Positions 580 to 6,591 of a DNA stretch of 64,000 nucleotides are shown one piece after another (position 1 is the first letter of the stretch; each line of letters opens with the position of its first letter). The notes beneath the pieces were generated by a model, which had not been told where the DNA came from, searched no databases, and worked only from the letters and a program-made list of their open reading frames with translations. This DNA comes from Bacteroidales bacterium (GTDB lineage Bacteria > Bacteroidota > Bacteroidia > Bacteroidales > F082). Made by a program: the position numbers and the translations under genes. The stretch is from positions 17,914 to 81,913 of the forward strand of contig JAFTUF010000007.1 of the NCBI GenBank assembly GCA_017466405.1, read 5' to 3'.

Positions 580-2268
580 ATGAAAAAAACGATATTACTA
601 TTAAGCGCGATAATACTTCTCTTTGCAGGATGCAAGAAATTTGATGATATAGAAGCCAGCAAACTTGAGATAAAAACTGAAAATATAGAAAAAGGCTGGG
701 ATTATATTAAGATAAGTGGTGAGTATTCTTATCCTGTGGAGTTGGAGTCTCTGACATTGTTACTTTCCGAGATAGAAGACATGAGCGGAGCGAAGACATA
801 CGACTGTGTTTTAGAAGGAAAGATATTTAGTGTTGAAGCAACAGATTTGAATGATGGAATATCATATTACTATTGTTATGAATATGACAATGGATATACA
901 AAGGAGAAAGGAGAAATAAGTACGCACGCCAAACCTATTGTTGTTACAGAAGATGCCACTAATGTTACTACCAAGTCTGCCATGTTGAAAGGTAGTGTTA
1001 CTAACAGCGACGCCATAAACAAAATTACAGCGCGAGGATTTTGTTGGAGCATCATGCCGAATCCTACAATAGAAAACGACTTCGTTGACAACGGCAGCAG
1101 CAGCGGAACAGGAACCTCAACCTTTACCCATTCGTTTATTAACTTAACAGAAAATACAACTTATTATTACAAAGCCTACGCCACCACAGACTGGGGAATA
1201 ATTTACGGAGAGGAGAAGAGTTTTAAGACGGTGGAGATAATGACGCCGGAATTAACAACTAATAACGTTACAGATATTACAACAAATTCTGCTAAATGTG
1301 GAGGTAATGTTACTTCAGATGGTAATGCCACCGTAACAGCAAGAGGTGTTTGTTGGAGTACATCTCCAAATCCGACGATAGAAGATAATAAGACAACTGA
1401 TGGTAACGCTACAGGAAACTTTATTTCGAATCTAACGAATCTAACAGATAACACTACATATTACGTTAGAGCCTACGCAACGAATGAGAAAGGACCGAGT
1501 TATGGAGAGGAGAAGAGTTTTAAGACGGCAAAAGTATTCGACGAGACAATTGATTCAAGTGGAAATAGGATAATAACATTGAATGGAAATGTGGTCTTTA
1601 CTATGATAGCAGTGGAAGGAGGTACTTTCCAAATGGGTGCTACCTCAGAACAAGGTGGCGACGCTTATAGTAATGAAAGCCCTGTTCATAATGTTACCTT
1701 AAGTGATTATTATATTGGAGAGACAGAGGTGACACAAGAACTATGGCAAGCTGTTATGGGCAGCAACCCGAGTCATTTCAGTGGTTACCCTCAAAGACCA
1801 GTGGAATATGTTTCATGGAACGATTGCCAAGAGTTTATAACGAAGCTTAACGAATTAACAGGCAGGAATTTCCGACTTCCTACGGAAGCGGAATGGGAAT
1901 ATGCAGCAAGAGGAGGCAATAAATCTCAAGGTTACAAATACAGCGGCAGCAATACTTTAGGCAATGTTGCGTGGTACGATGACAACAGCAGTTCTACACA
2001 TAACGTAAAGACCAAATCTCCAAACGAATTAGGCATTTACGATATGAGTGGTAATGTATATGAATGGTGTCAGGACTGGTACGGCAGTTACAGCAGCAGC
2101 TCACAGACCGATCCTACAGGACCTTCATCGGGCTCTCTCCGCGTTCTCCGTGGCGGCAGCTGGAACCACTACGCGAGGTACTGCCGAGTGTCGTATCGTG
2201 ACCGCAACAATCCCGACTACGGGTACGACGGCTACGGCTTCCGCCTTGCCTTACAGGAACTACAATAA
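580..2268 (+). CDS. SUMF1/FGE-fold lipoprotein with two Ig/Fn3-like repeats; DGR target protein
   Basis: 562 residues. Lipoprotein signal with lipobox LFAGC (Cys18), so probably membrane anchored. Residues about 130-215 and 220-317 are two homologous Fn3-like repeats, each containing a TARGxCWS-like core and a YYxxAYAT-like strand and ending in GEEKSFKT. Residues about 345-560 are a formylglycine-generating-enzyme/sulfatase-modifying-factor (SUMF1) domain with GGTFQMGA, TEVTQELWQAVMG, LPTEAEWEYAARGG, GNVYEWCQDWYG and RGGSW...GFRLA. In non-enzymatic members the fold serves as a binding scaffold of the C-type-lectin kind. The last ~43 codons are abruptly GC-rich compared with the rest and look like a retroelement-diversified variable region (separate entry). 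A second SUMF1 lipoprotein lies at 5731-6591 on the other strand. Inference: surface-exposed ligand-binding protein, ligand unknown. Confidence 0.9.
   Translation: MKKTILLLSAIILLFAGCKKFDDIEASKLEIKTENIEKGWDYIKISGEYSYPVELESLTLLLSEIEDMSGAKTYDCVLEGKIFSVEATDLNDGISYYYCYEYDNGYTKEKGEISTHAKPIVVTEDATNVTTKSAMLKGSVTNSDAINKITARGFCWSIMPNPTIENDFVDNGSSSGTGTSTFTHSFINLTENTTYYYKAYATTDWGIIYGEEKSFKTVEIMTPELTTNNVTDITTNSAKCGGNVTSDGNATVTARGVCWSTSPNPTIEDNKTTDGNATGNFISNLTNLTDNTTYYVRAYATNEKGPSYGEEKSFKTAKVFDETIDSSGNRIITLNGNVVFTMIAVEGGTFQMGATSEQGGDAYSNESPVHNVTLSDYYIGETEVTQELWQAVMGSNPSHFSGYPQRPVEYVSWNDCQEFITKLNELTGRNFRLPTEAEWEYAARGGNKSQGYKYSGSNTLGNVAWYDDNSSSTHNVKTKSPNELGIYDMSGNVYEWCQDWYGSYSSSSQTDPTGPSSGSLRVLRGGSWNHYARYCRVSYRDRNNPDYGYDGYGFRLALQELQ
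2128..2256 (+). other. Diversity-generating retroelement variable region (VR) at the 3' end of the SUMF1 gene
   Basis: Covers codons about 517-559. The invariant frame SGSxRVxRGGSWxxxAxxCRVSxRxxxxPxxxxxxxGFRLA matches the C-terminus of known DGR-diversified SUMF1-fold proteins. The positions between invariant residues (L520, L523, N529, H530, Y531, Y534, Y539, D541, R542, N543, D546, Y547, G548, Y549, D550, G551, Y552) are encoded by CTC, CAC, TAC, TAT, GAC, CGC, AAC, GGG and GGC. Each of these can be reached from AAC, AAT or AGG by changing only adenines, which is the DGR mutation signature. The block is much richer in G and C than the upstream gene. No template repeat or reverse transcriptase was found by reading the window. 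Confidence 0.8.
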
Positions 2269-2298
2269 CATTCATCATTTTGTACTAAGCTAAGGGAA

Positions 2299-2375
2299 CC
2301 GAGTTCAATGAATGCAGTGGAGCAAACGAAGTGAGGGACGAACGAAGTAAGCGGAACGGAATACATTGAACTCGG
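2299..2375. repeat. Inverted repeat just downstream of the variable region
   Basis: Perfect 12-bp arms CCGAGTTCAATG (2299-2310) and CATTGAACTCGG (2364-2375) around a 53-nt loop that contains CGAAGTGAG and CGAAGTAAG direct repeats. DGR targets often have a hairpin or cruciform shortly after the variable region that promotes retrohoming; this one lies about 40 bp after the VR. It could also simply be part of a transcription terminator or another dispersed palindrome. Confidence 0.55.
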
Positions 2376-2898: not shown

Positions 2899-3441
2899 AT
2901 GAAGATATTAGTGACTTACGCCTTTGAGGAAGAAGTTTTTCCCTTTGATATTCAAAATGCTGAATTGACATTCTTAAAAACCGGAATGGGTAAGGTGCTC
3001 TCAGCTTTTAACCTCACCAAAGCTCTATGCGAAAACAAATACGACTTAGTACTTAATGTTGGAACTGCCGGAACGCTGAATCATAATGTTGGCGACATCT
3101 TCGTCTGCCATCGTTTCGTGGATCGCGACATGGAGAAGATAGAACTTCCTAAGGTGTGTCACGATATTTCTTTCATAGAGAAAGTCGGAGTGGAACTTGT
3201 TGATAATTATGAGAATATCGGCGTATGTAACACAGGCGACAGTTTCGTGACAAAGGTCGGTAATTTCACTGGCGACGTCATCGATATGGAGGCTTTCGCT
3301 CAGGCTCAGGTCTGTAAGGAAATGAATGTTAACTTTGTTTCAGTAAAATATGTTACCGATGTCATCGGACAGAACTCGGGACAGGTTTGGTTGGATAAGC
3401 TTCGTGACGCACGCGAGGCGTTAAAAGAGTTTTTCGCATGA
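2899..3441 (+). CDS. MTA/SAH nucleosidase-family (phosphorylase superfamily) nucleosidase
   Basis: 180 residues from the ATG at 2899; a longer frame upstream reads through the promoter and is rejected. The nucleoside phosphorylase fold is indicated by an early TGMGKVLSAFNLTKAL loop, NVGTAGTL, NTGDSFVT, the nucleoside-binding DMEAFA motif and the SVKYVTD strand whose Asp is the expected catalytic acid. Family members cleave adenine or related bases from methylthioadenosine, S-adenosylhomocysteine or futalosine. It is shorter than E. coli MtnN (about 230 residues), and the substrate cannot be decided from sequence. The stop overlaps the start of the following radical-SAM gene (ATGA), implying translational coupling. 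Confidence 0.8.
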   Translation: MKILVTYAFEEEVFPFDIQNAELTFLKTGMGKVLSAFNLTKALCENKYDLVLNVGTAGTLNHNVGDIFVCHRFVDRDMEKIELPKVCHDISFIEKVGVELVDNYENIGVCNTGDSFVTKVGNFTGDVIDMEAFAQAQVCKEMNVNFVSVKYVTDVIGQNSGQVWLDKLRDAREALKEFFA

Positions 3442-5224: not shown

Positions 5225-5270
5225 AATTCATAATGCATAATTCATAATTCATAATTATGCATTATGAATT
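5225..5270. terminator. Perfect AT-rich hairpin between ygiQ and the four-helix-bundle gene
   Basis: Arms of 18 bp (AATTCATAATGCATAATT at 5225-5242 and its exact complement at 5253-5270) with a 10-nt loop. It can serve convergent genes on both sides. The same CATAATTCATAATG unit returns at 5667-5711, 12898-12923, 17970-18002 and 52706-52733. Confidence 0.6.
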
Positions 5271-5620
5271 GTACTCGTACTTGTCTTTACAATAGATGTA
5301 AGTATCTTAATAAGTTCTCGGCAATCGTTTAAAATACTTTCAGTCTCGGGTTCTGTTAAATAATTTGATTCATTTAATATTTCAATCCAATATTCGGTTT
5401 CGCTGGCTTCTTTTAAAGCGATGTTCATTTTAGATTTAAAATCAGCTTTGCTTTGTCCTCGGATAGCTTCTTTGATATTGGCACCAATAGAAGTCCCACT
5501 TCTAAGCAGTTGTTTTGAAATGATGTACTCGTATTTTTCATTGCACAAAAACTGATATAGTTTGATGCATTTTAAAGCGAAAGACTTGCTCTTCGCCACC
5601 ACGATATTATTAGGTTTCAT
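5255..5620 (-). CDS. Four-helix-bundle protein (S23 / 23S rRNA intervening-sequence protein family)
   Basis: 121 residues. The core matches the family signature: SFALKCIKLYQFL, ISKQLLRSGTSIGANIKEA, SKADFKSKMNIALKEASET, YWIEILNES. These small all-helical proteins were first noted in insertions within 23S rRNA genes and are common, often solitary, in Bacteroidota; their molecular role is unknown. The 3' end of the gene runs into a palindrome (5225-5270) and the 5' side is followed by a second palindrome of the same family (5667-5711), so the gene is boxed between related repeats. No rRNA is nearby. Confidence 0.85.
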   Translation of the reverse strand: MKPNNIVVAKSKSFALKCIKLYQFLCNEKYEYIISKQLLRSGTSIGANIKEAIRGQSKADFKSKMNIALKEASETEYWIEILNESNYLTEPETESILNDCRELIKILTSIVKTSTSTIHNA

Positions 5621-5730: not shown

Positions 5731-6591
5731 TTATTGAATCGCCAATCTAAATCCTGTGTTATAGTCGCGGTAGTGGATTCCTTGTTGGTAGCGTGTTGTC
5801 ACTCTTGCTTGTTGAGCGTTGGTATTCCAGCTTCCGCCGCGGAACACTTTATAACCTTGATTATAAACATCGCCTACTGGGTCTGTCACGGCTTCTTCTG
5901 TATAGTCATAATACCAGTCTTGGCACATTTCCCATACGTTGCCGCTCATGTCGTAGAGACCTAAGCCGTTAGGGTCTTTCTTTCCTACTTCGCTACACAT
6001 ATCGCTGTTTTGGTCAATCCATGCTACTTCGAGAACATTGCCGCCACCTGCATATAAGCTATATGATGTTGAAGCACCGCCTTTTGCAGCATATTCCCAT
6101 TGAGCTTCTGTTGGAAGAGCGAAGTTCAAGCCTGTGAATTCGTTTAACTTAGCGATGAAAGTCTCGACTTCGTCGTATGAAATTCTGTAAGCTGGGAAGT
6201 TGTCGCCTTTACCGAATTCTTTTTCCCATTGCATATCGTTCTCGTTGTTAGGAGTTGCGTTCATCACGGCTTCCCATAAACTTTGTGTCACTTCGTATTT
6301 GTTGATATAGAAGTCGCTGACTGTTACCTCATGAACTGGAGCTTCGTTAGGAAGGGCCTCTTCGTCGTAACAGTAATATAAGACAGAGTCTTTCTGTGCG
6401 CCCATGTAGAATGTGCCGCCATCGACTTTTACCATATTGGTAATCATGTCTCTGATAGCGTCTTTTTCTGTTTTGCCTAAATCGCCAGTCCAATTGATTT
6501 CAAAACCGTTGATAGTTTCATTTTTTGTATTGTCTTTATCGCATGATTGTAATGCCAAAAAACAACATAAGATTACTAATACTTTTTTCAT
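5731..6591 (-). CDS. SUMF1/FGE-fold lipoprotein
   Basis: 286 residues. Lipoprotein signal with lipobox LQSC (Cys17). The SUMF1 domain fills residues about 50-286: GGTFYMGA, NKYEVTQSLWEAVM, LPTEAQWEYAAKGG, YDMSGNVWEMCQDWYYDY, VFRGGSWN and the terminal GFRLAIQ. The cysteine pair used by true formylglycine-generating enzymes is not evident, so a binding or structural role is more likely. Unlike the paralogue at 580-2268, its C-terminal codons have the ordinary base composition of the region and no adenine-directed substitution pattern, so it is not an active retroelement target. No clear TAnnTTTG box was found upstream; a TATATTTA sequence near 6668-6675 (minus) is the closest. Confidence 0.88.
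   Translation of the reverse strand: MKKVLVILCCFLALQSCDKDNTKNETINGFEINWTGDLGKTEKDAIRDMITNMVKVDGGTFYMGAQKDSVLYYCYDEEALPNEAPVHEVTVSDFYINKYEVTQSLWEAVMNATPNNENDMQWEKEFGKGDNFPAYRISYDEVETFIAKLNEFTGLNFALPTEAQWEYAAKGGASTSYSLYAGGGNVLEVAWIDQNSDMCSEVGKKDPNGLGLYDMSGNVWEMCQDWYYDYTEEAVTDPVGDVYNQGYKVFRGGSWNTNAQQARVTTRYQQGIHYRDYNTGFRLAIQ

Follow-up and report, generated by a model that had tools for sequence, protein, structure and literature searches.

A variable gene end in a Bacteroidales genome, very probably written by an HRDC/TvpA-type retroelement, and a candidate flank tag for target choice

Introduction

Diversity-generating retroelements (DGRs) rewrite the end of a target gene and randomise only template adenines as they do so. 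Little is understood of how they reach remote targets while leaving their own template intact. A stretch of 64,000 nt from a Bacteroidales genome (here called the window; G000:C5:17914-81913 in an assembly of 2.43 Mb, 69 contigs and 95.1% completeness) poses this question for a lipoprotein gene with a hypervariable 3' end. The original prediction had seen neither a template nor a reverse transcriptase (RT) in these 64 kb and had suggested service in trans by a distant DGR. We asked whether a DGR wrote this gene end, of which type it was, whether it is present in the genome and how it would have recognized its target. The features of the locus are as follows.

580..2268, + strand: open reading frame of the predicted DGR target gene, encoding a 562-aa lipoprotein
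925..1539, + strand: two tandem Fn3-like repeats, by eye and from Pfam matches below cut-off
1600..2250, + strand: SUMF1/FGE-sulfatase domain (PF03781, E 1.1e-49, residues 341-557)
2131..2256, + strand: predicted DGR variable region (VR), a 117-nt core at 2131-2247 plus a shared 3' end, with adenine-confined change
2257..2293, + strand: tag-like VR 3' flank, its first 12 nt coding, 36/37 nt identical to the VR flank on contig 17 (C17)
2299..2375, + strand: hairpin with a 12-bp stem (2299-2310/2364-2375), z -3.7 against 100 mononucleotide shuffles
2331-2347, + strand: hairpin internal motif GTGAGGGACGAACGAAG, found with at most two mismatches twice in the genome, at the VRs of C5 (the window's contig) and C17

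Results

A SUMF1-type lipoprotein with a GC-rich variable end

The 562-aa product of the open reading frame at 580-2268 (+) contains MKKTILLLSAIILLFAGC with LFAGC at codons 14 to 18, which we take to be lipobox-like, and its C-terminal end reads SGSLRVLRGGSWNHYARYCRVSYRDRNNPDYGYDGYGFRLALQELQ. The closest solved structure to its SUMF1-type domain is Treponema denticola TvpA (2y3c, E 1.5e-49), with an alignment that runs through the variable end; by this likeness the domain would be of the C-type lectin type. The variable codons sit at the 3' end of this domain, as the PF03781 match reaches residue 557 of 562. The predicted switch from AT-rich to GC-rich DNA at the gene end was borne out, with a GC content of 0.593 in the variable end compared with 0.418 across the 600 nt upstream. 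A pair of Fn3-like domains had been predicted as well. Two repeats are recognizable by eye, with Pfam matches to Pur_ac_phosph_N (E 7e-6, two stretches) and fn3 (E 0.023) that are both weaker than the curated cut-offs, and we infer that they form a display stalk.

The stop codon comes earlier in the relatives L017 and L021, and in the window the flank is partly coding (2248-2268), with the flank DNA retained. At 5255-5620 (-), 3 kb from the VR, the window also encodes a 23S_rRNA_IVP four-helix protein (PF05635, E 1.8e-29), which adjoins a non-VR SUMF1 protein at 5731-6591.

Change in the variable region is confined to template adenines

The window VR was compared with nine reference templates (TRs) from related genomes, six of them from six genomes of the same genus (L024, L025, L034, L043, L047, L049), two from the same family (L028, L080) and one from the same order (L081). 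Counting was limited to the 88 of 117 consensus columns with at least 70% agreement among the nine TRs. Against this consensus, which stands in for the VR's own TR, 14/29 adenines were changed, compared with 1/25 C, 0/23 G and 0/11 T (Fisher 1.5e-7), i.e., 1/59 non-A positions. The non-VR SUMF1 paralog at 5731-6591 (-), used as a control, showed no such bias (A 11/29, non-A 27/59, p 0.5). Among single TRs scored over 117 columns, that of G092 fitted best (A 17/35, non-A 7/82). The excess at adenines was significant for eight of the nine (p 3.4e-6 to 1.3e-3) and not significant for the L081 TR, from another family (A 15/31, non-A 28/86, p 0.13). The same pattern was found over 39 VRs (A 612/1131, C 87/975, G 36/897 and T 44/429 changed), a tally that leaves out 4 of 43 rows (the control paralog, L037, L040 and L056).

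The change is A-confined, and the register and the non-A bases match real TRs beside RTs. The reading of 2131-2256 as a VR written by a DGR is about as well supported as sequence evidence allows. This agrees with the original prediction of an adenine-type VR on a SUMF1-type lipoprotein. Its further claim, that each variable codon can be derived by replacing adenines only, held in so far as change is A-confined; it did not carry over to one codon near the VR 3' edge (TAC before GGCTTC), which lies where the templates disagree with one another.

A second variable region in the genome and orphan variable regions in the genus

Only one other close copy of the VR was found in the genome, ending another SUMF1 gene, on C17. 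Between the C5 and C17 VRs, 20/33 template-adenine sites differ, compared with 4/70 sites that are never A in the templates (0/17, 0/20 and 4/33 at first, second and third codon positions). The rate at template adenines exceeds that at codon positions 1 and 2 upstream (46/350, p 3.7e-9), and third positions at never-A sites differ less often (4/33) than those of the upstream SUMF1 sequence (60/175, p 0.013). Hypervariable A sites, with the rest better conserved than the surrounding gene, are as expected if one or two close templates wrote both VRs. Contig 29 holds a third, more diverged VR-like end that lacks a complete tag, and no HRDC gene was found in the ~380 nt up to the end of that contig.

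Nine VRs of the window's flank type in five genomes were polymorphic at 33/33 A sites and at 15/70 never-A sites, 13 of these 15 being third codon positions. Same-genome pairs of orphan VRs in G047 and G077 differ at 6 to 9 of 70 never-A sites. A contig from a water-buffalo-rectum Bacteroidales MAG carries the same 19-nt flank tag and a VR core identical to that of the same-genus G047, so the window organism is probably a gut Bacteroidales. A second strain of its species did not turn up. Orphan targets seem to be common among relatives, as in T. denticola. At L062 (G089:C36) and L052 (G093:C11), the VR 3' flank resembles a TR-type flank in direct orientation, which looks like the outcome of a VR/TR recombination that deleted HRDC and RT. 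The G089 VR has one non-A mismatch to the G064 TR.

Related genomes carry HRDC-type cassettes

We searched 199 genomes, including the window's own, and scored no more than four candidates in each; 26 had window-type matches, with five pairs of matches spaced 1.7 to 1.8 kb. Around these pairs and at one further place lie six loci with a SUMF1 target, an accessory gene for a protein of ~155 aa, an RT and a template rich in AAC. This accessory is an HRDC protein (PF00570, E 1.2e-11 in G092), and a match to the G092 protein was present in 12/12 loci of the same clade and also in L246 to L248 and L250. HRDC-type RTs carry IGNLTSQ, which fits the DGR-type RT motif [ILV]GxxxSQ, together with YMDD (6/6 checked). 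The TR directly follows the RT in 5/6 of the first cassettes and in three further ones (two in G064, and G069:C39). L051 (G069:C20) departs from these eight, its TR being placed between HRDC and RT. Window-type matches, not all of them confirmed VRs, were present in 23 genomes of the genus, counting the window's own, and six of these have an RT at least 44% identical to that of G092. At L047 (G009:C6), around 3147-3358, the reading frames of the cis target and its own TR disagree at the VR end.

The matching template and reverse transcriptase are absent from the assembly

In the window's own assembly, a BLAST-type search and patterns with N at the template adenines returned VRs and unrelated stretches, and no window-type TR. 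A third match of the TR search, on C21, covers 17 bases and was judged to be chance, and two weak flank matches, on C49 and C62, fall within the same repeated stretch, identical at both places, with neither a VR nor a TR nearby by eye. No RT of the HRDC clade was found in the assembly either; its sole RT, on C59, shows 34-35% identity and belongs to another DGR type. An HRDC accessory was likewise not found there, the nearest hit being a 27% match inside a 755-aa frame.

The RT on C59 is part of a second, complete DGR of the bAvd type in the same genome (L005, G000:C59, 9405-14203). It comprises a 770-aa target with three Lcl_C stretches and Fn3-like repeats, a bAvd and a weakly MutS_I-like protein (E 0.0024). 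Its TR is in frame with the start of the RT open reading frame and is unrelated to the window VR. The C59 bAvd also matches family PF05635 weakly (E 7.4e-8).

Beyond the assembly, no TR with the window's tag was found across 99 genomes of the genus, or in a wider collection of genome contigs searched with the tag as an exact 19-mer. The nine VRs of the window's flank type, one of whose five genomes is rated 100% complete, also yielded no TR of that type. Their flank pattern, outside which the window genome's own two flanks fall, occurs at 19 places in the 99 genus genomes. Seven of these, with at most one mismatch, are all flanks of those VRs, and at the 12 places with three mismatches neither a VR nor a TR anchor lies close by. 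Viral contigs with a 16-nt anti-tag (five) or the VR pattern (three) held no TR of the window kind. No close RT was found in viral contigs (best 43% among the best 80 of 116), in phage records (best 39% among the matches listed) or in up to 5000 plasmid records (best 38% among the matches listed).

For this assembly it holds that the RT and TR that wrote the window VR are absent, by loss or through missing sequence. The orphan status that the original prediction described thus applies to this assembly. The lack of a template in the genome, which that prediction had itself named as grounds for refutation, is also what the genome-wide search of this 95%-complete assembly gave. The prediction needs amending in that the genome does hold a DGR RT, the bAvd-type one on C59 with its different TR.

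Cassettes share a flank complementarity between variable region and template

Cassette VRs and TRs resemble each other until the likeness breaks off sharply; from there on, most of the VR flank can be read as the TR flank in reverse complement. The complementarity was first noticed by eye and then scored. It covers most of the ~30 nt that follow the VR and the ~30 nt that follow the cassette's own TR in all 13 testable cassettes of the HRDC clade. For the first nine cassettes, the own VR/TR flank pair was best in 9/9 cases (1 of 100000 permutations), and the flanks gave no signal in direct orientation. With 13 cassettes and repeat boundaries set by hand, the own TR was best in 13/13 by alignment and in 12/13 by duplex energy (the exception being G069:C39), with an own-pair mean of -34.8 compared with -15.1 kcal/mol (0 of 200000 permutations). 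When boundaries were set automatically, the end of the repeat was wrong for L047 (score 8) and partly wrong for L046 (score 21). Among seven further regions and L083, scored in a later batch, two of the HRDC clade were positive, G064:C16 (score 37) and G069:C39 (score 29). Outside the clade, this batch was negative at L249, where RT identity is 34%, the HRDC match is weak and the tag signal is unclear, and at L253; four of its loci lacked a TR/VR pair.

No clear signal was found outside the HRDC RT clade at L085, L086, L088 (= L253), L089, L090 and L005, or at L113, L114, L115, L117, L119, L120 and L121. L116, which has HRDC plus Avd, was negative with a hand-set boundary, and L087, also outside the clade, gave a weak score of 19 (p 0.008). 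The VR flank on C59 showed no clear complementarity to its TR (score 16, p 0.18). L118, L083, L248, L250 and L252, where a TR/VR pair is absent, were left out of the counts. Judged by this set of loci, the tag is not a general DGR feature.

The window tag fits the G064 TR flank best (-26.0 kcal/mol; runner-up -23.8), a lead so small that it gives no proven match to any known TR. The anti-tag expected after the TR of the window VR is AGCTTAGTACAAAATGATG.

Remote targets keep the tag of their template

Compared with the G040 TR, a VR on another contig of that genome (G040:C28) has changes at 13/33 adenines and at 0/84 non-A positions; it has its tag and hairpin in common with the cis target, and by eye the likeness ends after the hairpin. 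In G069, a VR on another contig (G069:C67) likewise differs from the TR of that genome at 14/33 adenines and 0/84 non-A positions, and its tag fits the G069 TR best. This VR lies ~0.4 kb from a contig end, and its distance from the cassette can therefore not be given. Of six cassette-less VRs with a core within five non-A mismatches of a known TR, a cut-off picked after looking, five carry the tag of that TR, G069:C67 among them; the exception is G089, with its TR-type flank. At the scripted cut-off of eight, tag and core agree on the TR in 5/12, and 758 of 20000 permutations were as good. Since the remote targets in G040 and G069 have no non-A mismatches, service at a distance, as originally suggested, is plausible for this DGR type; for the window it meets an assembly without a matching TR, clade RT or HRDC gene.

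A hairpin follows many of the variable regions

In the 99 genus genomes, 14 of 18 matches to the hairpin motif lie at VR-like gene ends. Three of these ends were absent from the listing of the DNA search, A bias being scored for G040:C28 alone. The other four matches have one mismatch and lie within another repeat. The motif is present in 13/43 non-TR flanks, one of the 43 being the control paralog, and in 0/9 TR flanks. Folding covered 13 of 16 chosen motif-bearing flanks, of which ten have a z of -2.8 or lower and three show no hairpin. By eye, a T-A pair of the C5 stem is a compensated C-G pair in C17, and two other pairs are broken in C17. Rfam gave no match within 2000-2900 of the window. 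The C59 VR flank has a hairpin of its own by eye, and in four genus genomes (L229, L231, L233, L239) a repeat ATTGCGAGCGAGG(A/C)ACGAGCGAAGCAA, or close to it, has inverted partners nearby.

Discussion

The window VR was very probably written by a DGR of the HRDC/TvpA type, able to serve several targets, with the flank tag as a possible guide to the choice. In such an event, adenine-mutagenised cDNA from a TR would have replaced the 3' end of the window gene and given a lipid-anchored, lectin-like protein a new ligand-binding face. The target would be chosen through its VR 3' flank tag, complementary to the TR 3' flank and often followed by the hairpin. HRDC is a nucleic-acid-binding domain and could assist the pairing of template RNA with the tag strand. 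We tentatively put forward, as a possibility somewhat short of probable, that HRDC-type Bacteroidales DGRs pick targets by an RNA address: the template-RNA 3' flank would pair with the ~30-nt sense-strand tag, opening the duplex so that the other strand is free to serve as primer or acceptor for cDNA, and the hairpin would keep it open. A gene end that gained VR, tag and hairpin would then become a target wherever in the genome it lies. The TR, which has the anti-tag and lacks the hairpin motif, would for that reason not be overwritten, the anti-tag acting as self-protection.

What became of the DGR is a separate matter. There is about an even chance that it was lost from the lineage and that the C5 and C17 VRs are fossils now drifting under ordinary selection. 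This fits an assembly without clade RT, TR or HRDC accessory, the 4/70 never-A differences between C5 and C17 compared with 0/84 in intact remote targets, and the finding that five of nine same-genus genomes (at least 90% complete, with a window-type match, the window's own included) lack an RT at least 44% identical; T. denticola isolates without the DGR core also retain target genes, according to the accessible part of PMC4891356. Against it stand the ~5% of the genome that is missing, in which repeat-rich cassettes may have been lost to poor assembly, and the state of the locus itself, with flanks 36/37 identical between C5 and C17, a retained hairpin and an intact reading frame. Somewhat less probably, the VR is served in trans at present by a DGR that is in the cell and outside the assembly, whether chromosomal or carried by a mobile element that was not binned. 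The remote targets of G040 and G069 with 0/84 non-A mismatches, the retained tag-like flank and hairpin and the 69-contig, 95%-complete state of the assembly speak for this; the distant RTs among phage (39%) and plasmid (38%) matches listed and among the best 80 of 116 viral ones (43%) speak against it, as do the nine same-flank VRs in five genomes, one of them rated 100% complete, for which no TR was found with at most four candidates scored per genome. Because C5 and C17 differ at fewer never-A sites (4/70) than the G047 and G077 pairs (6 to 9 of 70) and at more than intact remote targets (0/84), we lean towards a loss or inactivity of the DGR that is more recent than for the orphan VRs of related species.

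Two further explanations dispense with a DGR or with the address. That the gene end is an ordinary, fast-evolving SUMF1 end is hardly credible: non-VR SUMF1 paralogs do have RGGSW...GFR motifs too, but the unbiased control paralog in the TR-consensus comparison, the match to real TRs beside RTs and the C5/C17 pattern speak against it, and we regard it as already refuted by that comparison and that pattern. The tag alone could reflect terminal inverted repeats of a mobile HRDC-RT-TR cassette, solo tags being insertion footprints. The two flanks do bracket the cassette as inverted repeats, and solo tags sit at cassette-less VRs. This origin is nevertheless unlikely, given that the open reading frame lists contain no further transposase-sized frame between VR and TR besides HRDC and RT, that the block shared by the cis and remote targets of G040 spans tag and hairpin and then, by eye, stops as a target block would, and that the remote VR itself was rewritten.

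For an HRDC/TvpA-type DGR with a flank tag, a cassette-specific complementarity that is kept at remote targets offers a concrete, testable answer, for one clade, to how targets are found and the template spared. Tag and hairpin also give a route to orphan and remote targets, the hairpin motif alone having yielded three unlisted VR-like ends; such targets are missed by cassette-based DGR surveys, according to the accessible part of PMC8144416. The orphan target itself would be a further case of known DGR targets, and the tag would be the new element. TR/VR flank complementarity is not described in the accessible parts of PMC3240598, PMC8144416, PMC10907252, PMC12875486, PMC4891356, PMC3521204 and PMC4372165. 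A literature search, with preprints and most subscription journals outside its scope, found no description of it, which is weak evidence of novelty.

Among known systems, the DGR of Bordetella phage BPP-1 resembles the Bacteroidales loci in its A-confined VR and in a required downstream element, a hairpin/cruciform (PMC3240598, accessible part), which efficient homing needs (same part of PMC3240598) and which has been proposed to hold the target open (PMC12875486, accessible part). It differs in that the stem of this element is self-complementary, 8 bp long and capped by a short loop (PMC3240598, same part), whereas the Bacteroidales flank is complementary to the TR flank and its hairpin lies further downstream with a loop region of ~50 nt; the Bacteroidales accessory is HRDC and that of BPP-1 is Avd. 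The tag may do part of the BPP-1 hairpin's job by sequence. For the Thiohalocapsa PB-PSB1 DGRs, the accessible text of PMC10907252 describes no tag or hairpin address. The C59 bAvd-type DGR is likewise a complete DGR in the same genome as the window and has a target with Fn3-like repeats, but this target is of the Lcl_C type, the TR is unrelated and the accessories are bAvd and a MutS_I-like protein. The TvpA DGR of T. denticola, as described in the accessible part of PMC4891356, has its accessory gene between TR and RT, unlike the Bacteroidales cassettes, where the TR follows the RT in 8/9. It shares with them SUMF1-type lipoprotein targets, an HRDC accessory and several remote targets and, like the window genome, some of its isolates keep targets without RT and TR (PMC4891356, same part).
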